Shown here piece by piece: positions 34,520 to 54,357 of a stretch of DNA of 54,955 bases (positions within the stretch are counted from its first letter, which is position 1; each line of letters begins with the position of its first letter). The notes below the pieces were generated by a model. It had not been told where the DNA came from, did not search any database, and saw only the letters and a program-made list of their open reading frames with translations. The DNA is from Acidaminococcus intestini DSM 21505. Its GTDB lineage: Bacteria > Bacillota > Negativicutes > Acidaminococcales > Acidaminococcaceae. Location of the stretch: the NCBI RefSeq assembly GCF_000425045.1, contig NZ_AULA01000012.1, positions 1 to 54,955 of the forward strand. The letters run 5' to 3'. Made by a program: the position numbers and the translations under genes.

Positions 34520-35401
34520 GTGAAATCATATCATTTGAAACGATGGGTCCTGCCCCTTGCCATGGTGACGCTCCTTTCGGGAATCCAATCCTCGGAGGCG
34601 GGTTCCTTCAAGGAACGCATCATGGGGGAACGGACCCAGAAAGAAAAGCGTCCTGCCCAGACAGCGGTGCTCAAAAAGGAAACCGCCATGAAGCCGCCCA
34701 AAGGGGCCGTGGTCTTTATTTATGGGGCGCCTATGGACATTCCCCAGACGGAGCCGCCCCTGGTGCGCCGCCAGCGGGCCATGGCGCACCGCGTCGTCAC
34801 GGACCCGAACCTCCTTGTCATTTCAAAGCGGCTCATGACGCAGGGACAGATTTGGAAGATCCCTGAAAACTACGACAAGGTGAGCATCTTTGGTGAGCCC
34901 GAAGTGCGGCGCTCCCAGGCCATTGCACTCCTGACGCTCTATAATCCGCAGCTTCCCATCAAGGCGACGCCGGAAGAAATCGTGGATGCTTACTACGAAG
35001 AAGCGAGCCGGGAAGGCATTCGCTGGGATCTTGCCTTTTCGCAGGCCCTCCTTGAAACGGGGTTCTTTGCCTTTGGCGGTACGGTGGTACCGGAACAGAA
35101 CAATTTCTGCGGCTTGGGCACAACCAGTGCGACTGTGCGCGGTGCTTATTTTCCTACGCCAAAGGACGGCGTGAGGGCCCATATCCAGCATCTGATGGCC
35201 TATACGACGGATCGGCTTCCCAAGACCGCCATCATCGATCCCCGCTATGATTTGGTGCATCGCATCAAAAAGGAGACGGGATACGCGACAACGTGGAAGC
35301 AGCTTAACGGAAAATGGGCGACAGGCAGCTACTATGCTGAAAAAATCATGAATATCCATGAACAGATGAAGGGCATGATTGCCATCATGGGTACGGATTA
35401 G
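34520..35401 (+). CDS. Secreted glucosaminidase-domain protein (GH73-like)
   Basis: A 293-residue exported protein: signal peptide VLPLAMVTLLSGIQSSEAG, a charged linker of about 100 residues, and a C-terminal glucosaminidase domain from about residue 150. The domain has DLAFSQALLETGFFAFGG with the catalytic Glu, NNFCGLGTT, and YFPTPKDGVRAHIQHLMAY. Such enzymes cut the GlcNAc-MurNAc bond of peptidoglycan, in this organism from the periplasm. GTG 34520 is the start. It follows the symporter by three bases and precedes trmL, an operon of mixed functions. Confidence 0.85.
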   Translation: MKSYHLKRWVLPLAMVTLLSGIQSSEAGSFKERIMGERTQKEKRPAQTAVLKKETAMKPPKGAVVFIYGAPMDIPQTEPPLVRRQRAMAHRVVTDPNLLVISKRLMTQGQIWKIPENYDKVSIFGEPEVRRSQAIALLTLYNPQLPIKATPEEIVDAYYEEASREGIRWDLAFSQALLETGFFAFGGTVVPEQNNFCGLGTTSATVRGAYFPTPKDGVRAHIQHLMAYTTDRLPKTAIIDPRYDLVHRIKKETGYATTWKQLNGKWATGSYYAEKIMNIHEQMKGMIAIMGTD

Positions 35402-35417: not shown

Positions 35418-35885
35418 TTGCATATTGTTCTTGTTGAACCGGAAATCCCAGGCAATACGGGAAATATTGCCCGCTTGTGTGCGGCAACGGGGGCTTCCCT
35501 TCATTTGGTGCGCCCCCTGGGCTTTTCTGTCGATGACCGCTATTTGAAGCGTGCTGGTCTTGATTACTGGCATCTAGTCGATATTCATTACTATGACAGT
35601 GTGGAGGAAGTTCTTGCGGCCTATCCTGACGCACCGCGTTTTCTTCTGACGACCCACGCGCATCGTTCGTATACGCGTGTGGAGTATACCAAGGATTCCC
35701 TGCTGATTTTTGGCAAAGAATCGGCTGGTCTTCCCGAAGCCTTTCGGATGGCCCATGAAGATGAATGTATCCGTATTCCCATGGTGCCTGAAGCCCGCAG
35801 TCTCAACCTTGCCAATTCTGTCTCAATCGTGCTTTACGAAGCACTCCGCCAAGTACATTTTGATTTAGAGGAGGGTACCATATGA
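35418..35885 (+). CDS. trmL: tRNA (cytidine/uridine-34-2'-O)-methyltransferase TrmL
   Basis: A 155-residue SPOUT methyltransferase that methylates the wobble ribose of tRNA-Leu. Motif 1 IVLVEPEIPGNTGNIAR is at the N-terminus, then LIFGKESAGLP and the knot-forming IPMVPEARSLNLANSVSIVL, which bind S-adenosylmethionine. TTG 35418 is the likely start, giving the compact form of the family; upstream in-frame codons overlap the previous gene. Stop overlaps the next start (ATGA), so it is translationally coupled to the folate genes. Confidence 0.9.
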   Translation: MHIVLVEPEIPGNTGNIARLCAATGASLHLVRPLGFSVDDRYLKRAGLDYWHLVDIHYYDSVEEVLAAYPDAPRFLLTTHAHRSYTRVEYTKDSLLIFGKESAGLPEAFRMAHEDECIRIPMVPEARSLNLANSVSIVLYEALRQVHFDLEEGTI

Positions 35886-36244
35886 TCTGCTTAAAGGAAT
35901 TTGATTTTGACGCCGCCCATTTTCTCCCCAATTACAACGGAAAATGTGAACATCTCCACGGCCATACGTATAAACTTGTTGTCAAAGTTGAGGGCACGCC
36001 TGACCATGAGGGCATGGTTCTTGATTTCGTGCGCTTCAAGAACCTCGTGAAGGAACTTGTTGTAAGTAAGCTGGACCACGCCTTCATCAACGACATCCTG
36101 CCTCAGCCGTCGGCGGAAAATATTGCCGTCTGGGTCTGGCAACAGCTGGAAACGCCGCTTCATGGGCCGAACTACCATCTTTTTGAAGTGGAAGTCTGGG
36201 AAACGAAGACGAGCGGGATTATCTATCGAGGTGAAACATGCTAA
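35882..36244 (+). CDS. COG0720 PTPS/QueD-like synthase with CExxHGH motif
   Basis: A 120-residue tunnelling-fold enzyme acting on 7,8-dihydroneopterin triphosphate. Zinc ligands are His13, His26 and His28. The active-site string is Cys22-Glu23-His-Leu-His26-Gly-His28. QueD enzymes use Cys (CxxxHGH) to make the queuosine precursor; PTPS-III enzymes use Glu (ExxHGH) to make the folate pterin and so bypass FolB. Having both residues is the pattern reported for dual-function PTPS-I/III proteins. It overlaps folE2 by seven bases, and folP and folK follow with no folB among them, so it probably supplies 6-hydroxymethyl-dihydropterin. The queD name would be misleading if this is its main job. Confidence 0.87.
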   Translation: MICLKEFDFDAAHFLPNYNGKCEHLHGHTYKLVVKVEGTPDHEGMVLDFVRFKNLVKELVVSKLDHAFINDILPQPSAENIAVWVWQQLETPLHGPNYHLFEVEVWETKTSGIIYRGETC

Positions 36245-37005
36245 AAGACGTACAAGGCCAAGTCGACCAGCGCCATATTGCACTGAAACAAGTGGGCATC
36301 CGCGACATCCGCTGGCCCATTACCTTAAAGGATCCCCATAAGGGCGTCCAGCATTCAGTGGCGGTGATTTCTCTCGGCGTGAACCTCCCCCATGAGCAGC
36401 GGGGAACCCATATGAGCCGATTTGTGGAGTGTCTCAAGGAAATGGGACCCATTCATCCTCATGATCTGGAAATCGTCCTTGATGGGCTCAAGGAAAAGCT
36501 AGGCGCCAAGAAGGCCATGTTGGATATGCGTTTCCCTTACTTTATTGAAAAAAAGGCACCTGTATCGGGGAAAACAGGTTATCTTGATATTTCCTGCCAT
36601 TACCATGCGGAAAAAGGGGAGACCTTCCATCTGGATGTGGGCGTCAATGTCCCCATCCACACCCTTTGCCCCTGCTCCAAGGAAATCAGCAAATATGGTG
36701 CGCACAATCAGCGGGCCCGTGCCAAGATTACGATCCGTAGCACGAAACCTGTATGGATCGAAGAACTGGTGGAAATGGCCGAGGCTTCTGCTTCGTCTCC
36801 TATCTTTTCGTTGCTTAAGCGTCCTGATGAAAAGTTTGTCACCGAGGAAGCCTATGAAAATCCTCGTTTTGTTGAGGACGCGGCCCGGGAAATCGCCCTG
36901 CGGCTCAATCAAGATGAGCGGATTGATTGGTACCGCGTGACCGTAGAAAGTGAGGAAAGCATCCATAACCACAATGCCTTTGCTTGTGTGGAAAAGGAGG
37001 ACTAG
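36238..37005 (+). CDS. folE2: GTP cyclohydrolase FolE2 (type IB)
   Basis: A 255-residue enzyme of the COG1469 type that converts GTP to dihydroneopterin triphosphate, the first step of folate synthesis and queuosine. Family marks are VSLGVNLPHEQRGTHMSRF, the metal/catalytic Cys in HTLCPCSKEIS, and GAHNQRA. Unlike zinc-dependent FolE this form can use other metals. It makes the substrate for the PTPS-like enzyme whose gene it overlaps. ATG 36238 is used. A Zur box was looked for upstream but none is obvious. Confidence 0.94.
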   Translation: MLKDVQGQVDQRHIALKQVGIRDIRWPITLKDPHKGVQHSVAVISLGVNLPHEQRGTHMSRFVECLKEMGPIHPHDLEIVLDGLKEKLGAKKAMLDMRFPYFIEKKAPVSGKTGYLDISCHYHAEKGETFHLDVGVNVPIHTLCPCSKEISKYGAHNQRARAKITIRSTKPVWIEELVEMAEASASSPIFSLLKRPDEKFVTEEAYENPRFVEDAAREIALRLNQDERIDWYRVTVESEESIHNHNAFACVEKED

Positions 37006-37008
37006 GCC

Positions 37009-38205
37009 TTGTATATCAAGATTCCCTGCGATCAAGTCAGCTTTGAACTAAAAAAAATGGGGGTCCATCCGACTGGGATTGCCCTCATGGCACCCAAGGC
37101 GGTTGTGGAACCGCTGCGTCTTGTCGGGGTACGGGCTCCCGGCGCCAATATCATCAAACAGGAAATGCTCGCCATGGGGGCGGACGCTGCTAATGCCAAA
37201 GGAACCATCAACTGCAGTATAGAACGGACGGATGTGATTTTACTTGGAAGCCGTACCCAGTACCGGCACCTTGCTCACAAACTCAGGGCCAATCAGGGAT
37301 GGTTCGGTCTTGATGAAGTCATAAGGGATATCGAGGACTATCTTACAGACCATGAGCTCGCGACGATCCTTGCGGACGGACGGACCCTTACGTATGAAAA
37401 GATGCGGATCATGGGAATCCTTAATGTAACACCCGATTCCTTTTATTCAGGATCCCGTGTCACAGCCGGTTCCCTGATCTTGAAGCGGGCCGGAAAGATG
37501 CTGGATGACGGTGCCGATGTCCTTGATATTGGCGGTGAATCGGTCCGCCCTGGCAGTGATCCCGTACCGGCAGAAGAAGAAATCCGCCGTGTCGTCGGGG
37601 CTATTTCGGAAATCCGCCGGGCTTATCCTGAGGCCATCCTTTCCGTTGATACGTACCACGCTGCGACGGCCCGCGCCGCCCTTGACGCGGGAGCCGATAT
37701 CATCAACGATGTTACGGCGGGAACGGGTGATCCCGACATGCTTTCCGTTGCCAAAGAAAAAGACGCGCCGCTCATCCTCATGCATATGCGTGGTACGCCC
37801 AAGACCATGATGAGCGCCGACATGAAGGCCTATCATAACGTAGTCGGCGATGTCATGGAATATCTTTTAACGCGGACAGAGGCTTGTGAAGCGATGGGAA
37901 TTGGTCGCACTAAACTCATGCTTGATCCGGGTCTTGGCTTTGCCAAGGATGTCAGCGGCAACCTGGAACTGTCCCGCGGTCTTGCGGAACTTACGGGACA
38001 CGGGATTCCAGTCCTTGTTGCAGGGTCCCGCAAGGGCTATATCGGTAAGGTCCTGGGAGACCTTCCGCCGGAAGAGCGCCTTGAAGGGACCATGGCCCTT
38101 TCCGCAGCAGCTGTTTTTGCTGGCACCCAAATGGTTCGCGTCCACGATGTCAAGGAAAATGTACGGCTCATCCGTATGTTGGAGGCGATTCTATCATGCC
38201 GGTAG
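37009..38205 (+). CDS. folP: Dihydropteroate synthase with N-terminal extension
   Basis: A 398-residue protein; the TIM-barrel dihydropteroate synthase occupies residues about 131-398, with MGILNVTPDSFYSGS, DIGGESVRPGSDPV, DVTAGTGDP, and the C-terminal VAGSRKGYIG. It joins pterin pyrophosphate to p-aminobenzoate and is the sulfonamide target. Residues 1-130 are an extra domain absent from the usual 270-280-residue enzyme, containing MAPKAVVEPLRLVG and NCSIERTDVILLGSRTQY; similar long forms occur in other anaerobic Firmicutes (from memory) but its role is unknown. TTG 37009 follows AAAAGGAGG. Its end overlaps folK by ten bases. Confidence 0.93.
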   Translation: MYIKIPCDQVSFELKKMGVHPTGIALMAPKAVVEPLRLVGVRAPGANIIKQEMLAMGADAANAKGTINCSIERTDVILLGSRTQYRHLAHKLRANQGWFGLDEVIRDIEDYLTDHELATILADGRTLTYEKMRIMGILNVTPDSFYSGSRVTAGSLILKRAGKMLDDGADVLDIGGESVRPGSDPVPAEEEIRRVVGAISEIRRAYPEAILSVDTYHAATARAALDAGADIINDVTAGTGDPDMLSVAKEKDAPLILMHMRGTPKTMMSADMKAYHNVVGDVMEYLLTRTEACEAMGIGRTKLMLDPGLGFAKDVSGNLELSRGLAELTGHGIPVLVAGSRKGYIGKVLGDLPPEERLEGTMALSAAAVFAGTQMVRVHDVKENVRLIRMLEAILSCR

Positions 38206-38663
38206 CCTATGTGGCCCTTGGCAGCAACCTAGGGGATAAAAAAGCTTATTTGGAAGACGCTCTGAGCCGGATGAAGGTACATGGCATCAAGGTCCAGAAA
38301 GTTTCCACATGGATCCAAACAGCGCCATATGGCGTAACGGACCAGCCGGAGTTCCTGAATGGGGCGGCTGAAGTGATATGGGACCAGGATGCACAGAGCC
38401 TTCTTATGGAGCTTCTTGCCATTGAAAAGGAAATGGGGCGGGAGCGCAAGCGCCATTGGGGCGAACGGAACATCGACCTTGATTTGATTTTATTTGAGGA
38501 TGAGATCATGGAGACTGAATTTTTGACGCTGCCCCATCCGGACATGCAAAACCGGGATTTTGTCCTCCGCCCCTTGGCGGAGATTGCCCCCCAAAAGGAA
38601 CATCCTGTCCTGAAACGCAGCATGCTGGAACTCTGGCATGAGCTTCAGAAAAAAGGAAAGTAA
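38196..38663 (+). CDS. folK: 2-amino-4-hydroxy-6-hydroxymethyldihydropteridine pyrophosphokinase
   Basis: A 155-residue HPPK that pyrophosphorylates hydroxymethyl-dihydropterin using ATP. AYVALGSNLGDK is at the N-terminus, then LLAIEKEMGRERKRHWGERN with the IDLDLILF metal-binding Asp pair, and LPHPDMQNRDFVLRPL. Starts inside the end of folP, so coupled. In many bacteria folK is fused or adjacent to folB; here there is no folB, consistent with the PTPS bypass upstream. Confidence 0.95.
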   Translation: MPVAYVALGSNLGDKKAYLEDALSRMKVHGIKVQKVSTWIQTAPYGVTDQPEFLNGAAEVIWDQDAQSLLMELLAIEKEMGRERKRHWGERNIDLDLILFEDEIMETEFLTLPHPDMQNRDFVLRPLAEIAPQKEHPVLKRSMLELWHELQKKGK

Positions 38664-47879: not shown

Positions 47880-48956
47880 ATGCCAGCATACAAAGACAAG
47901 GCCAAAGGCACATGGTATGCGTCCTTTTACTTTGAGAACTGGACGGGGAAAAAGGAAAAGAAGATGAAACGGGGCTTCAAGACCAAGCGGGAGGCGCTGG
48001 AGTGGGAACGGACATTCCTGCAACAGCAGACCGCCGACCTGGACATGACCTTTGAGAGTTTCGTGGCCCTCTACGCTGCGGACGTGAAAGGCCGTATCAA
48101 GGAGAACACCTGGGGGACGAAAGAGCATATCCTCTACAAGAAGCTGGTGCCTTATTTCGGCAAGCGGAAAATGAGCGAGATTGGCTCGAAAGAGGTCATG
48201 GCATGGCAAAGCGAAATGCTCAACTACCGGGACAAGAACGGCAAGCCCTACTCGCCTGTCTACTTGAAAACGCTCCACAATCAGTTGAGCGCCGTTTTCA
48301 ACCATGCAGTCAGGCACTACAAGCTGAAAACCAACCCCGCCGCCCAGGTAGGCAATATGGGCAAGGCCAAGGGCCGGGAAATGCTGTTCTGGACGAAAGC
48401 GGAGTATCTGAAATTTGCTGACGCTATGATGGACAAGCCCCTATCCTACTATGCCTTTGAAATGCTCTACTGGTGCGGTATCCGGGAGGGGGAATTGCTG
48501 GCCCTCACCCCTGGGGACTTCGACTTTGAGAAGCAGACGGTTTCCATCTCAAAATCCTATCAGCGTATCAAGGGCCAGGATGTAGTCACCGACCCCAAGA
48601 CCGCCAAGAGCAACAGGATCATTCAAATGCCCGCTTTCCTCTGTGAAGAAATGGAGGACTACATCAAGAGCCTGTATGCCGCAGAGCCGACAGACCGTAT
48701 TTTCCCGGTGACGAAATCCTATCTTCACCGGGAGATGGACAGAGGAGCGAAAGCGGCGGGGGTCAAACGTATCAGGATTCACGACCTCCGACACAGCCAC
48801 ATTTCCCTGCTGATTGACATGGGCTTTACGGCTCTGGCAATCGCTGACCGGGTGGGGCATGAAAGTATCGACATCACCTACCGCTACGCTCACCTGTTCC
48901 CCACCCGGCAGGCGGAGATGGCGGACAAGCTGGACATGGAGCGAAAGGGGGCTTAA
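47880..48956 (+). CDS. int: Tyrosine recombinase (integrase) of the guaA element
   Basis: A 358-residue site-specific recombinase. Residues 1-60 are an arm-binding AP2-like domain (WYASFYFENWTGKKEKKMKR), 60-165 the core-binding SAM-like domain (MTFESFVALYAADVKGRIKE), and 180-350 the catalytic domain. Catalytic residues are Arg in WCGIREGELLAL, His and Arg in IHDLRHSHISLL, the second His in VGHESIDITY, and Tyr in RYAHLFP. All are present, so the enzyme should be active. It would recombine GAGTGGGAATAA cores, using the TGATACT arm sites. Together with Xis it defines a Tn916-like integration module. Confidence 0.93.
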   Translation: MPAYKDKAKGTWYASFYFENWTGKKEKKMKRGFKTKREALEWERTFLQQQTADLDMTFESFVALYAADVKGRIKENTWGTKEHILYKKLVPYFGKRKMSEIGSKEVMAWQSEMLNYRDKNGKPYSPVYLKTLHNQLSAVFNHAVRHYKLKTNPAAQVGNMGKAKGREMLFWTKAEYLKFADAMMDKPLSYYAFEMLYWCGIREGELLALTPGDFDFEKQTVSISKSYQRIKGQDVVTDPKTAKSNRIIQMPAFLCEEMEDYIKSLYAAEPTDRIFPVTKSYLHREMDRGAKAAGVKRIRIHDLRHSHISLLIDMGFTALAIADRVGHESIDITYRYAHLFPTRQAEMADKLDMERKGA

Positions 48957-48959
48957 ATC

Positions 48960-49280
48960 ATGTCTGTAAAGAACCTCGACAACCACAACCGATGGAGAAG
49001 CAAGACCATAGCGTTCCGGGTGTCCCCGGAGGAAAATGAACAGATTGAGATTGCCGTCCGCCTCTCCGGGCTGACCAAGCAGGACTACATCACCCGACGG
49101 CTCTTAGACCGGGCCGTGGTGGTGCAGGGCAATCCCAGGGTCTACAAGGCCCTGCGTGACCAACTCGCCGCCGTCCTGGAGGAACTGCGGCTCATTGAGG
49201 CCGGGGGCGGCGTGGGGGATGAACTTCTCTCCACCATTGACCTTATCTCGGTGACGCTGGGCGGCATGAAGGAGGATTGA
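48960..49280 (+). CDS. Mobilization accessory protein (MobC-like, ribbon-helix-helix)
   Basis: A 106-residue protein. The N-terminal half, RSKTIAFRVSPEENEQIEIA with VRLSGLTKQDYITRRLL, is a ribbon-helix-helix DNA-binding pattern typical of MobC/relaxosome proteins on mobilizable elements. The C-terminal half is a predicted helical tail. It probably binds near oriT and helps the MobV relaxase. It starts three bases after int and is followed eight bases later by the RepA-like gene, so one polycistronic transcript is expected. Confidence 0.72.
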   Translation: MSVKNLDNHNRWRSKTIAFRVSPEENEQIEIAVRLSGLTKQDYITRRLLDRAVVVQGNPRVYKALRDQLAAVLEELRLIEAGGGVGDELLSTIDLISVTLGGMKED

Positions 49281-49287
49281 TAGATTG

Positions 49288-50442
49288 ATGGATTCCAGAG
49301 AGACGAAAAGGACTGTCCCGATTCCGTCTGCGCCAACAGACGGGGAACAGCCCAATTCTCAAACAACTACCCAAAGTATAGCAGAGGGAACGGCTGAAAA
49401 CAACCCCCAAGAGGAAAGTTTGGAGGAAATGCTCCGGGATATGCGGCGCAAGAGCGACCCAGCCTATCTCCATACGGTTTCCATGAATGACCTTTACCAG
49501 AATGTGTATCTGAGCAGACCGCCTATTATTGACGGTCTGCTCTATCCGGGGACGTACCTCTTTGCGGGAGCGCCCAAGGTGGGCAAGTCGTTCCTGATGG
49601 CCCAGCTTGCCTACCATGTCAGCATGGGCCTCCCCCTGTGGGGCTACCCTGTCCACAAGGGGACTGTCCTCTATCTGGCGTTGGAGGACGACCACCGCCG
49701 CTTGCAGGGGCGGCTGTACCGAATGTTCGGCACAGAGGGCACCGACAATCTGCTCTTTGCGGTCTACGCAAAGCAGCTTGGCGTTGGCCTGGAAGAACAG
49801 CTAAAGAAGTTCGTCCGGGAACACCCGGACACCAAGCTGATTATCATTGACACCCTCCAGAAGATACGGGAGGCTGGCGGTGAGAAGTATAGCTACGCCA
49901 ACGATTACGAGGTAGTGGGCAAGCTGAAACGCCTTGCCGATGATTGCGGCGTCTGCCTCCTGCTGGTACACCACACTCGAAAGCAACAGGCAGATGACAA
50001 ATTCGATATGATCTCCGGCACCAACGGTCTGCTGGGAGCGGCGGACGGGGCCTTTCTTCTTCAAAAGGAGAAGCGGACAGATGGCAGTGCCGTTCTGGAC
50101 GTGGCCGGGCGTGACCAGCAAGACCAGCGATTCTATCTTACCAAGGACAAGGAACGGCTGATATGGACGCTGGAGCGTACGGAAACGGAGGCATGGACAG
50201 AGCCGCCCGACCCGGTGCTGGAGGCCGTAGCCGCCCTTGTGACGGCGGAAAGCCCCTCCTGGGGAGGGACGGCCACGGAACTGGCGGCGGCGCTCCAGAC
50301 CGACATGAAGCCCAACGCCTTGGCAATGCGGCTGAATGTCCGGGCCGGGAAGCTGCTGACAGACTACCACATCCGCTATGAGAACAGCAGGAGCCACGCC
50401 GGGAGAAGTATCAGCCTGACGCTGGAACCGTCCCAGGCGTGA
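49288..50442 (+). CDS. repA: RepA-like AAA ATPase (DnaB/RecA fold)
   Basis: A 384-residue ATPase of the RepA hexameric-helicase type. Walker A is GAPKVGKSFLMAQLA near residue 97, the next motif is VLYLALEDDHRRLQ, Walker B is KLIIIDTLQKI, and a conserved LLLVHHTRK follows. The C-terminal part (residues 300-384) is a winged-helix-like segment. Such proteins replicate IncQ-type plasmids or assist replication of excised integrative elements. Iteron-like repeats overlap its stop codon and continue downstream. ATG 49288 is chosen, with GGAGG at 49271-49275; TTG 49285 is possible. Confidence 0.8.
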   Translation: MDSRETKRTVPIPSAPTDGEQPNSQTTTQSIAEGTAENNPQEESLEEMLRDMRRKSDPAYLHTVSMNDLYQNVYLSRPPIIDGLLYPGTYLFAGAPKVGKSFLMAQLAYHVSMGLPLWGYPVHKGTVLYLALEDDHRRLQGRLYRMFGTEGTDNLLFAVYAKQLGVGLEEQLKKFVREHPDTKLIIIDTLQKIREAGGEKYSYANDYEVVGKLKRLADDCGVCLLLVHHTRKQQADDKFDMISGTNGLLGAADGAFLLQKEKRTDGSAVLDVAGRDQQDQRFYLTKDKERLIWTLERTETEAWTEPPDPVLEAVAALVTAESPSWGGTATELAAALQTDMKPNALAMRLNVRAGKLLTDYHIRYENSRSHAGRSISLTLEPSQA

Positions 50443-50520
50443 CGACCGTGACGGCTGTGACGGCTTTTTGAGGGCGGGGGCGGTGTCTGAAACATTGTCA
50501 CGGTCGTCACGGCCGTCACG
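50439..50520. repeat. Iteron-like GTGACGG repeats facing each other
   Basis: Three tandem units of the form cGTGACGrC (50439-50464) and three units of the opposite orientation, GTCACGG-type (50497-50520), flank a 32-base spacer that includes GGGCGGGGGCGG. The array begins at the repA stop. A role as replication origin of the excised element is inferred. Confidence 0.55.
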
Positions 50521-50531
50521 GGGAGCGGGGT

Positions 50532-50603
50532 CAAAAGTCAAGGGGGCATACCTGCGGGTGGAGATTGCCGCAAGGCAATACAACCCGTACCCCTTGACTT
50601 TTG
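50532..50603. repeat. Nested inverted repeats, candidate origin or oriT
   Basis: CAAAAGTCAAGGGG (50532-50545) pairs with CCCCTTGACTTTTG (50590-50603). Inside, ATTGCC/GGCAAT around GCAA (50564-50579) forms a second hairpin. No gene lies in 50443-50877. Confidence 0.55.
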
Positions 50604-50820
50604 GCCCACGGAGAACACTTGCCGGGTGGTGGGAAAGGCCGTGCCTTTCCCACCTGCCCAACGGCGAGTGGCAAAGTTTAGGCGGGGTGCAGGGTGACCT
50701 TTTCAAAGGGCGGCCCTGCTGGGGGAGCCGTCCGCAGACGGCGGGGGCAAAGCCCCCATTCCACCCCGTAGGGCGCAAATGCGCTTTTGATGGCCGACAG
50801 GCTGTCAAAAGTGCTTTTGC

Positions 50821-50841
50821 GTTACTTTCGCAGAAAGTAAC
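50821..50841. repeat. 9-bp inverted repeat upstream of the relaxase, candidate oriT
   Basis: GTTACTTTC-GCA-GAAAGTAAC lies 37 bases before the mob start, the usual position of a MobV oriT. The nick site cannot be assigned from sequence alone. Confidence 0.5.
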
Positions 50842-50877
50842 AAAGGCCGCCGCTGGCGCGGCGAAAGGAGTGTTGAT

Positions 50878-52065
50878 TTGAAAAGGACGATTAGTGCGAT
50901 GGTGGGGCAAGGCTCGGTGAACCACAACAGCAGGAAGTTCAACGCCAAGAACACCGACCCGGAACGCTCCCATTTGAATATAACCTACTGCCAGGAAAAT
51001 ATCAAGGCAGTTTTTCATGAGATGTTTGACGAGGCCCTCAAGCGGTACAACGACAAGCAGACCAGGGCAGACCGCAGGATTGAGAACTACTATGAGAAGA
51101 TACGCTCCAGTAAGCAGGAAAAGCCGTTCCACGAAATCATCCTGCAAGTGGGCAACAAGGACGACATGAGTGCTGGCAGCGAGGACGGCCAGCTTGCGGC
51201 GGCGGTGCTGGACGAGTACATGAGGGGCTTTCAAGAGCGCAACCCCCAGCTTCGGGTGTTCTCGGCTCACCTCCACATGGACGAGGCCACACCCCATCTG
51301 CACATTGATTTTGTGCCGTTCACCACCGGCAGCAAGCGGGGTCTGGACACCAGGGTATCACTTAAACAGGCGTTAGCGGCCCAGGGTTTCAAGGGCGGCA
51401 CCAGAGGGGACACAGAATGGAGCCAGTGGGTACGCTCTGAAAAGGAACAGCTTGCCGCCGTGATGGAGCGCCACGGGATAGAGTGGGAGGACAAGGGCAC
51501 CCACGACCAGCACCTGTCTGTGCTGGACTACAAAAAGGAGCAGAGGGCCAAGGAGATCGCCCAACTGGATAAGTTCAAGGCCAAGAAGCAAAAAGAGGTG
51601 GCGGGGCAGGAACAGCGGTTGAAGGAGTTGGCCCCGGCAGTAAAGAACATGGAACGGCTGGCGGCGGAGTTTTCGGCAGACCCAGAGGAAGTCTTACCAG
51701 AGCCGGGGCCGCTGGAGAGCGCCAAGTCCTACCGGGAGAAAAAGGCCAAGCCTCTTTGGGCGAAGATCGTCAAGGTGCTGCGCTCGGTCTACCGGGCCTA
51801 TCTCGACCTCAAATCCAAATTTGAGCGGCTACAAGCGGACTATGGCCGGGAGGTCAGCAAAAACAGTTCTTTGTCAGAAAGGATTTACGAGGTCTGCGCC
51901 GAGAGAGACAGTCTAAAGGGAAAGGTCAGGGACTACGAGCGGGTCAGGCGGGCCATTGGTCTGGAACAAGCGGACAGAATATTAGAGGCAGCTTACCAGC
52001 AGGAACAGGCCGAAAAGGAACGGAAACGGGCCGCAAGGCAAAAAACAAGGGTAGGCGCACGATAA
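50878..52065 (+). CDS. mobV: MobV-family relaxase (Mob/Pre)
   Basis: A 395-residue plasmid-recombination/mobilization relaxase. SAHLHMDEATPHLHIDFVPF is the HxDExxPHxH metal motif; the N-terminal HNSRKFN and a conserved NITYCQENI stretch match MobV proteins. The C-terminal half is a long coiled coil (about residues 220-380) rich in Lys, Glu and Arg. The enzyme nicks oriT to start transfer in trans using another element's secretion system. TTG 50878 is the start, seven bases after AAAGGAG. It is followed by a terminator and the tet leader. Confidence 0.9.
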   Translation: MKRTISAMVGQGSVNHNSRKFNAKNTDPERSHLNITYCQENIKAVFHEMFDEALKRYNDKQTRADRRIENYYEKIRSSKQEKPFHEIILQVGNKDDMSAGSEDGQLAAAVLDEYMRGFQERNPQLRVFSAHLHMDEATPHLHIDFVPFTTGSKRGLDTRVSLKQALAAQGFKGGTRGDTEWSQWVRSEKEQLAAVMERHGIEWEDKGTHDQHLSVLDYKKEQRAKEIAQLDKFKAKKQKEVAGQEQRLKELAPAVKNMERLAAEFSADPEEVLPEPGPLESAKSYREKKAKPLWAKIVKVLRSVYRAYLDLKSKFERLQADYGREVSKNSSLSERIYEVCAERDSLKGKVRDYERVRRAIGLEQADRILEAAYQQEQAEKERKRAARQKTRVGAR

Positions 52066-52074
52066 TCACCAAAA

Positions 52075-52110
52075 CCGGAAGGTATTTCAGTGAATACCCT
52101 CCGATTTTAT
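52075..52110 (+). terminator. Terminator after the relaxase gene
   Basis: GGAAGGTATT and AATACCCTCC form a hairpin followed by GATTTTATTT. Confidence 0.6.
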
Positions 52111-52135
52111 TTGTGGAATCGGGTAAAATAATTTC

Positions 52136-52164
52136 TTGCTTTTTAGAGCGTACTATGATATACT
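52136..52164 (+). promoter_or_regulatory. Promoter of the tet leader and gene
   Basis: TTGCTT (52136-52141) and TATACT (52159-52164) with a 17-base spacer. Confidence 0.6.
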
Positions 52165-52196
52165 GTTATTATCCTGATTTGAGGAGTCTACCAAAT

Positions 52197-52220
52197 ATGC
52201 GGCAAGGTATTCTTAAATAA
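52197..52220 (+). CDS. Seven-residue leader peptide of the tet gene
   Basis: ATG 52197 follows GAGGAG at 52181-52186 and encodes MRQGILK before TAA. Its last codons lie in the 5' arm of the long leader hairpin, so ribosome movement over this peptide can alter the RNA fold. This resembles attenuation in front of ribosomal-protection tet genes; the exact mechanism here is inferred. Confidence 0.55.
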   Translation: MRQGILK

Positions 52221-52404
52221 AATTTGATAATGGGCGCAAAAATGCTTGCCCCTTGCAGGGGCTTGGTTTTTGTACCCAATTTAAGAATACTTTTGCCTTT
52301 TAAGCAAATATCGTGACGGACAGCAGCTTATGTAAGCCGTGTGTGTTTTTGTGTGTCCGAAGTCATGATCCCCAGCGGTAAAAGTATTAGCCGCTGGGGA
52401 TTTT
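52207..52404 (+). promoter_or_regulatory. Attenuator leader of the tet gene
   Basis: GTATTCTTAAAT (52207-52218) pairs with ATTTAAGAATAC (52279-52290), enclosing GCCCC/GGGGC (52248-52262). Further on CCCCAGCGG (52370-52378) and CCGCTGGGG (52391-52399) followed by ATTTTT form a terminator just upstream of the tet ribosome site. The arrangement is that of tetracycline-responsive transcription attenuation. Confidence 0.7.
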
Positions 52405-52437
52405 TGCGCCCATTTGGGCCTTGCATGGAGGATAGAC

Positions 52438-54357
52438 ATGAACATTATCAATATTGGGATTCTTGCCCATGTAGACGCTGGAAAGACGACCTTGACAGAG
52501 AGCCTGCTATATGCCAGCGGAGCCATTTCAGAACCGGGGAGCGTCGAAAAAGGGACAACGAGGACGGACACCATGCTGCTGGAGCGGCAGCGTGGGATTA
52601 CCATTCAAGCGGCAGTCACTTCCTTCCAGTGGCACAGATGTAAAGTCAACATAGTGGATACGCCCGGCCACATGGATTTTTTGGCGGAGGTGTACCGCTC
52701 TTTGGCTGTTTTAGATGGGGCTATCTTGGTGATCTCCGCTAAAGATGGTGTGCAGGCCCAGACCCGTATTCTGTTCTATGCCCTGCGGAAAATGAACATT
52801 CCCACCGTTATCTTTATCAACAAAATCGACCAGGCTGGCGTTGATTTGCAGGGCGTGTATCAGTCTGTTCGGGATAAGCTCTCCGCCGATATTATCATCA
52901 AGCAGACGGTATCGCTGTCCCCGGAAATAGTCCTGGAGGAAAATACCGGCATAGAAGCATGGGATGCGGTCATCGAAAATAACGATGGATTATTGGAAAA
53001 GTATATCGCAGGAGAGCCAATCAGTCAGGAAGAACTTGCGCAGGAGGAACAGCGGCGGGTTCAAGCCGCTTCCCTGTTCCCAGTCTATCATGGCAGCGCC
53101 AAAAAGGGCCTTGGCATTCAACCGTTGATGGATGCAGTGACAGGGCTGTTCCAACCGATTGGGGAACAGGGGAGCGCCGCCCTATGCGGCAGCGTTTTTA
53201 AGGTGGAGTATACAGATTGTGGCCAGCGGCTCATCTATCTGCGGCTATACAGCGGAACGCTGTGCCTGCGGGATACGGTGGCCCTGGCCGGGAGAGAAAA
53301 GCTGAAAATCACAGAGATGCGTATTCCATCCAAAGGGGAAATTGTTCGGACAGACACCGCCCATAAGGGCGAAATTGTCATCTTTCCCAGCGACAGCGTG
53401 GGATTAAACGATGTATTGGGGGACCAAACCCGGCTCCCTCGTGAAAGGTGGCGTGATGCCCCCCTCCCCATGCTGCGGACGACGATTGCGCCGAAAACGG
53501 CAGCGCAAAGAGAACGGTTGCTGGACGCTCTTACGCAAATTGCGGATACTGACCCGCTTTTGCGCTACGAGGTGGATTCCATCACCCATGAGATCATTCT
53601 TTCTTTTTTGGGCCGGGTGCAGTTGGAGGTTGTTTCCGCTTTGCTGGCGGAAAAGTACAAGATTGAAACAGCGGTGAAGGAACCCACCGTCATTTATTTA
53701 GAGCGGCCGCTCAAAGCAGCCAACCACACTATCCATATTGAGGTGCCACCCAACCCGTTTTGGGCATCCATCGGACTGTCTGTTACGCCGCTCCCGCTTG
53801 GCTCCGGTGTACAATACGAAAGCCGGGTTTCCCTGGGATACTTGAACCAGAGTTTTCAAAACGCTGTCATGGATGGTATCCGTTACGGGCTGGAGCAAGG
53901 CTTGTGCGGCTGGAACGTAACGGACTGTAAGATTTGCTTTGAATACGGGCTTTATTATAGCCCGGTCAGCACGCCGGCGGATTTTCGCTCATTGGCCCCG
54001 ATTGTATTGGAACAGGCATTGAAGAAATCAGGAACGCAGTTGCTGGAACCTTATCTCTCCTTCACCCTCTATGCGCCCCAGGAATACCTTTCCAGGGCTT
54101 ATCACGATGCGCCAAAATACTGTGCCACCATCGAAACGGCCCAGGTAAAAAAGGATGAAGTTGTCTTTACTGGCGAAATTCCCGCCCGCTATATACAGGC
54201 ATACCGTACTGATCTGGCCTTTTACACCAACGGGCGGAGCGTATGTCTTACAGAACTGAAAGGGTATCAGGCCGCTGTCGGCGAGCCGGTCATCCAGCCC
54301 CGCCGTCCAAACAGCCGCCTGGACAAGGTGCGCCATATGTTCAGTAAGATTACTTGA
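52438..54357 (+). CDS. tet(W): Tetracycline resistance ribosomal protection protein, Tet(W)-type
   Basis: A 639-residue EF-G-like GTPase that removes tetracycline from the ribosome. G1 is [10 protein letters not shown], the switch region [19 protein letters not shown]3 DTPGHMDF, and G4 NKID. Then come domains II-V typical of Tet(M/O/W), ending [13 protein letters not shown]. Length equals Tet(W) and long stretches match it from memory. Several substitutions (for example in DLQGVYQS and the segment before LCGSVF) suggest a diverged or partly mosaic allele. ATG 52438 follows GGAGGA; the frame opens 24 bases upstream but that part is leader. Last gene of the element. Confidence 0.92.

Follow-up and report, generated by a model that had tools for sequence, protein, structure and literature searches.

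PTPS-III proteins are enzymes of COG0720 that bypass FolB, reportedly described by Pribat in 2009. In the excerpted text of PMC3223725 the replacement of FolB by PTPS-III is listed as validated in one eukaryote and eight prokaryotes, and in that of PMC4674097 it is applied to a Rickettsia. Proteins with the motif CExxHGH are presented in the excerpt of PMC5041015, citing Phillips 2012, as PTPS-I/III hybrids. The motifs are used in a neighbourhood network in the excerpt of PMC5445326; for gut bacteria that of PMC6593275 lists alternative folate enzymes and a QueC-only salvage phenotype, and that of PMC5372724 deals with salvage through QueT and YhhQ. Both the hybrid motif and the use of PTPS-III as a substitute for FolB are therefore already in print (excerpts of PMC5041015 and PMC3223725), and the union of Cys and Glu in one motif, singled out in the initial annotation of the DNA studied here, is not a novelty. 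No openly licensed paper was found that treats Acidaminococcus together with queuosine, with PTPS or folB, or with dihydroneopterin aldolase.

A CExxHGH enzyme in a folate operon

The window (the whole stretch of Acidaminococcus DNA analysed, 54,955 nucleotides) contains the following features around such a motif:

35882..36244, + strand: PTPS-III-type gene (CExxHGH), 120 amino acids; ORF translation, Pfam, NCBIfam, structure model
35945..35965, + strand: motif codons Cys22-Glu23-His-Leu-His26-Gly-His28; translation, alignment of relatives
35418..35885, + strand: trmL, TTG start inferred; TIGR00185 just below cut-off
36238..37005, + strand: folE2, GTP cyclohydrolase, proposed source of the substrate; NCBIfam, Pfam
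37009..38205, + strand: folP, dihydropteroate synthase domain at residues 135-379; NCBIfam, Pfam
38196..38663, + strand: folK, pyrophosphokinase, proposed consumer of the product; NCBIfam, Pfam

Translation of 35882-36244 (+) places CEHLHGH at residues 22-28 of the 120-residue protein, with Cys22 encoded at 35945-35947, Glu23 at 35948-35950, His26 at 35957-35959 and His28 at 35963-35965. Given that the protein matches the Pfam PTPS family PF01242 at 9.3e-38, this is not a chance frame, and the motif reported in the initial annotation is confirmed. An AGGAGG lies a few bases 5' of the start. The run trmL-PTPS-folE2-folP-folK is tightly packed: by the starts of the ORF caller, the PTPS gene shares 4 bases with trmL and 7 with folE2, folE2 and folP are 3 bases apart and folK overlaps folP by 10 bases (for trmL the ORF caller starts at 35379, and the TTG start at 35418 is inferred). 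The placing of the gene between trmL and folE2-folP-folK is borne out by NCBIfam, with FolE2 (NF010200), FolP (TIGR01496) and FolK (TIGR01498) above cut-off and TrmL just short of it (TIGR00185, 188 bits against 190.6). As had been remarked of dihydroneopterin aldolase, there is no folB among the genes of this run.

Two further observations concern the surrounding DNA. In FolP some 130 residues precede the synthase domain (window 37009-37400); the search of the full protein gave no Pfam domain for them, and the search of this N-terminal part alone no NCBIfam match. A tyrosine recombinase lies in a mobile-looking stretch at 47880-54357 together with a ribosomal protection gene of the TetM/TetW/TetO/TetS family, above cut-off, and a MobV relaxase is matched weakly there (52.7 bits against a cut-off of 100).

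The AlphaFold model of the CExxHGH protein (hereafter the CE enzyme) has a mean pLDDT of 95.0, and its best matches among solved structures are the Pseudomonas PTPS 2oba and E. coli QueD. Across 25 aligned relatives, 20 of CE type and 5 of QueD type, the invariant residues include His13, Cys22, His26, Gly27, His28, Asp65, His66 and Glu107, and Glu23 is invariant in the 20 CE-type rows. Fold and family are those of COG0720/PTPS, and the protein shares with PTPS-III the motif ExxHGH as given in the excerpt of PMC5041015 (Glu23-His-Leu-His26-Gly-His28), a genome without FolB and clustering with folate genes; it differs in an extra Cys one position ahead of the Glu, and folate activity is here a prediction from sequence. 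The PTPS-II motif of the same excerpt, CxxxxxHGH, is absent, since Gly20 stands six positions before His26. With the PTPS-I/III hybrids the motif is identical, whereas the Acidaminococcus genome has a separate QueD. E. coli QueD (4ntk/3qn0) has the same fold (TM-scores of about 0.9, 36-38% identity) and shares the QueD (PTPS-I) pattern CxxxHGH, but the CE enzyme has Glu after the Cys, sits in a folate operon and is flanked by trmL and folate genes, with none of the queC or queE neighbours typical of QueD. The Plasmodium PTPS structures (1y13, 2a0s; mutants 3m0n, 3lze) share the fold at only 20-27% identity; for the P. vivax enzyme the titles of the entries describe E37A and E37C as mutants of a catalytic residue, a Glu that may correspond to Glu23.

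These features suggest, very probably in our judgement, a PTPS-III enzyme that bypasses a missing FolB, the queuosine precursor coming from the separate QueD. FolE2, encoded by the next gene, would make dihydroneopterin triphosphate. The CE enzyme would bind a zinc ion through His13, His26 and His28, which we take from the family to be the ligands, and would use Glu23 for the side-chain cleavage of dihydroneopterin triphosphate to 6-hydroxymethyl-7,8-dihydropterin. FolK and FolP would then take this product, and the missing FolB would be bypassed.

Distribution of FolB and of the CE motif

A search with PF02152, which finds FolB in 10 of 14 control genomes, gave no match in the whole Acidaminococcus genome (2.28 Mb, 99.99% complete), so that the separate folB whose presence the initial annotation proposed to check was not found there; nor was there a match in any of the 59 genomes of the family. 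Among 160 genomes sampled from the class, each at least 95% complete, FolB is present in 128 and absent exactly in the 32 of this order, namely 29 family genomes and G110, G147 and G153. FolE2 is present in 119 of the 160 and is thus not special to the order. In one family genome (G042:C4:5012-5755) the folE2 frame has one TGA inside the match.

Within the family, 52 of the 59 genomes gave a PTPS match and each of the 52 has one CExLHGH enzyme (51 loci read and the window's own); the seven genomes where no PTPS match was found (G015, G023, G028, G044, G046, G047, G052) are 73-93% complete. As in the window, folE2 lies directly downstream of the CE gene at all 51 other loci, and trmL was found at 50 of these, the exception (L005) being just 2,018 bases long. 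The CE enzymes of G110, G147 and G153 likewise adjoin folE2, with no trmL found within the stretch examined. All 55 folate-operon enzymes read across the order (52 family, 3 outside) are therefore CExLHGH proteins beside folE2, and matches to QueE, QueC or QueF were found in the stretch examined at none of 54 loci (51 from the family, the window's own not counted, and 3 from outside it). Taken with the motif, the operon and the absence of FolB matches from genome, family and order sample, this leaves the FolB bypass proposed in the initial annotation well supported as a prediction.

For the FolB-bearing rest of the class, one PTPS locus was read from 56 of the 128 genomes, plus the second locus of G180; the second PTPS matches of G075, G076, G100, G122 and G134, and G110's, were left out of this survey. 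In 55 of the 56 genomes the position after the Cys is not a Glu. The exception, G180, has FolB, and its QueD-type protein carries KCENLHGH beside queE (L150); its second QueD, with KCQNLHGH, adjoins another queE (L236). This counts against the FolB-bypass reading: the Glu can arise in a que context, and because of G180 the Glu alone is no proof of folate function.

A scan of named genomes used two patterns, one of them containing CE, and the best 80 of 567 were kept; given that the pattern favoured CE, its presence in 80 of 80 is not independent evidence, and the scan overlaps the survey genomes (its L170 and the protein L096 of G147 are identical). Among these best 80 of 567, the closest named protein is 83% identical to the CE enzyme, folE2 lies on the same strand in the stretch examined at 64 of the 80 loci, and the loci beyond the class include many from Synergistota and Clostridia and some from Thermotogota. 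Another context for the same CE motif is seen in Athalassotoga saccharophila (L176), where the gene after the CE enzyme is QueF-like (42% identity) and is joined by one for a membrane protein which, named by eye, looks like a YhhQ transporter, with no folE2 in the stretch examined.

A third type of PTPS paralog, EA[QR]YLHGH, is without the Cys position of QueD and the Glu position of PTPS-III. Nine such proteins were read, at L066-L073 and L258:8181-8822 (G009, G010, G038, G036, G039, G021, G030, G031, G153); that of L258 begins with a rubredoxin-like, Cys-rich segment, and those of L069, L071 and L073 end in Cys-rich tails. This paralog does not track QueE.

Queuosine genes and the question of a second role

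The second PTPS of the window's genome carries CTRLHGH and belongs to a queF-queC-queD-queE series on contig C44, which answers in the affirmative whether the genome has a separate queD. The C44 QueD retains the conserved residues, and the QueE beside it is above the TIGR03963 cut-off. A separate QueD beside queC and queE occurs in 12 family genomes (G000-G008, G042, G057 and G058, G000 being the window's own), and QueE was matched at 1e-15 in 12 of the 59, the same 12. No QueE match was obtained in the other 40 family genomes with a CE enzyme, 25 of which reach 90% completeness or more with contamination of 5% or less, the others falling short on one count or the other; at 1e-15 TIGR03963 matches only 6 of 14 controls, and a very different QueE could escape it. 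TIGR03365 at 1e-9 matches 8 of the 14 controls and gives the same 12 family genomes and G029, a genome 63% complete, with a weak match of 8.2e-10. A candidate QueE in G020 (2.3e-13) was rejected as NrdG2, and a QueE-like frame at G161:C52:43219-43875 has one TGA inside the match.

A QueC match above 150 bits is found in 36 of the 59 family genomes, 24 of them without a QueE match. In the 20 of these 24 QueC neighbourhoods that were read (G030, G038, G044 and G046 were left out, and several are cut by contig ends), no QueE or QueD was found by match to the Acidaminococcus proteins at 1e-4, and QueF is present in 6. In G013 (L074:3947-5691), the one neighbourhood that was annotated, queC stands with queT and queF, with no queE or queD nearby, an arrangement in keeping with salvage of a precursor. 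Tgt, the enzyme that inserts the base, is present in 56 of the 59 genomes (55 above cut-off), and genomes without QueE therefore probably import a queuosine precursor. QueC without a separate QueD was also considered as proof of double duty and rejected, given those 24 of 36 QueC genomes and the G013 neighbourhood, which fits salvage.

The initial annotation also raised the possibility that the enzyme has a dual role. In this scenario the CE enzyme would be bifunctional in use, supplying 6-carboxytetrahydropterin for queuosine and sharing this task with the separate QueD. Proteins with CExxHGH are reported active in both pathways in the excerpt of PMC5041015, which counts against a purely folate-side reading, as does the score of the CE enzyme with the NCBI QueD model TIGR03367, 104.2 bits against a cut-off of 89.25 and higher than the 90.7 bits of the que-cluster QueD of the same genome. 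However, this scenario is improbable for three reasons: first, a separate QueD with its conserved residues stands in the que cluster of the Acidaminococcus genome. Second, within the family QueE was found in no genome beyond the 12 that have a QueD of their own besides the CE enzyme, and 40 genomes keep the CE enzyme with no QueE found. Third, the 54 CE loci checked in the order are free of matches to QueE, QueC and QueF in the stretch examined. Since a separate QueD exists, a queuosine function of the CE enzyme is not called for in Acidaminococcus, and the dual role is unsupported for this genome; on sequence grounds the separate QueD would make a second role unneeded. A capability for both pathways is quite possible, and its use for both in the Acidaminococcus genome is not indicated.

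The argument that the role is dual because the motif has both residues was likewise rejected, given the Cys in 40 family genomes without a QueE match and the organism's own QueD. As Cys and Glu are kept with or without the capacity to make the queuosine precursor, the Cys does not point to double duty in this lineage. All 52 family enzymes retain Cys22, 40 of them in genomes where QueE was not found. It may instead take part in, or be needed for, the folate-side reaction, and the clade might be drafted as QueD where QueD is missing, a suggestion made tentatively and with more doubt than conviction.

The place where such a substitution may have occurred is G153. Of the three order genomes outside the family, G147 has a CE enzyme, a separate QueD and QueE, and G110 has a CE enzyme with no QueE match. 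In G153 queC directly neighbours queE (L234, L256); no PTPS separates the two, and no dedicated QueD was found there or elsewhere in the contig parts read. Of its two PTPS matches one is the CE enzyme (L097) and the other, judged from sequence, is probably the EAQYLHGH paralog of L258, which is 57% identical to that group. This favours double duty, and it is possible that the CE enzyme of G153 acts both in folate synthesis and as QueD; it is also possible that a QueD has been lost, the genome being 95% complete.

The TIGR03367 score, together with the closest solved structures being Pseudomonas PTPS and E. coli QueD, also raises the possibility that the CE protein is a plain QueD that stands by chance beside folate genes, folate being made otherwise or taken up. 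This is very hard to credit: the QueD of the genome is located in its que cluster, folE2 still adjoins the CE gene in genomes where QueE was not found, FolB is absent throughout the order sample, and the Glu is missing from 55 of the 56 PTPS loci in the rest of the class. A division of labour, with the CE enzyme on the folate side and the que-cluster QueD supplying the queuosine precursor, would remain the better account of the Acidaminococcus genome.

Origin and meaning of the CE enzymes

A tree of 92 rows and 126 columns was made from 213 proteins and the window, with two proteins entered twice and the EA paralogs left out (support as bootstrap/SH-aLRT). The CE enzymes of the order form, with one from a Bacillota bin, a starred group of 24 rows (97/91), which lies with CE enzymes of Clostridia (91/97, unstarred). 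A separate starred group (99/98) holds 32 QueD rows, including the Acidaminococcus C44 QueD. A branch of 2.31 puts seven more QueD rows, those of the G042/G147 type, amid the CE enzymes of Thermotogota, and this placement is not trusted. The pattern could stem from an exchange of the folate gene or from an ancient duplication, and the 126 columns do not decide between them.

In summary, no new system is revealed at this locus. An annotation error is likely, given that the NCBI QueD model ranks the folate enzyme above the que-cluster QueD of the same genome. The order offers a natural contrast: in the sample it is without FolB and has a CExxHGH enzyme beside folE2, and synthesis of the queuosine precursor is either assigned to another gene or not found. 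The meaning of the extra Cys is therefore testable in this order.
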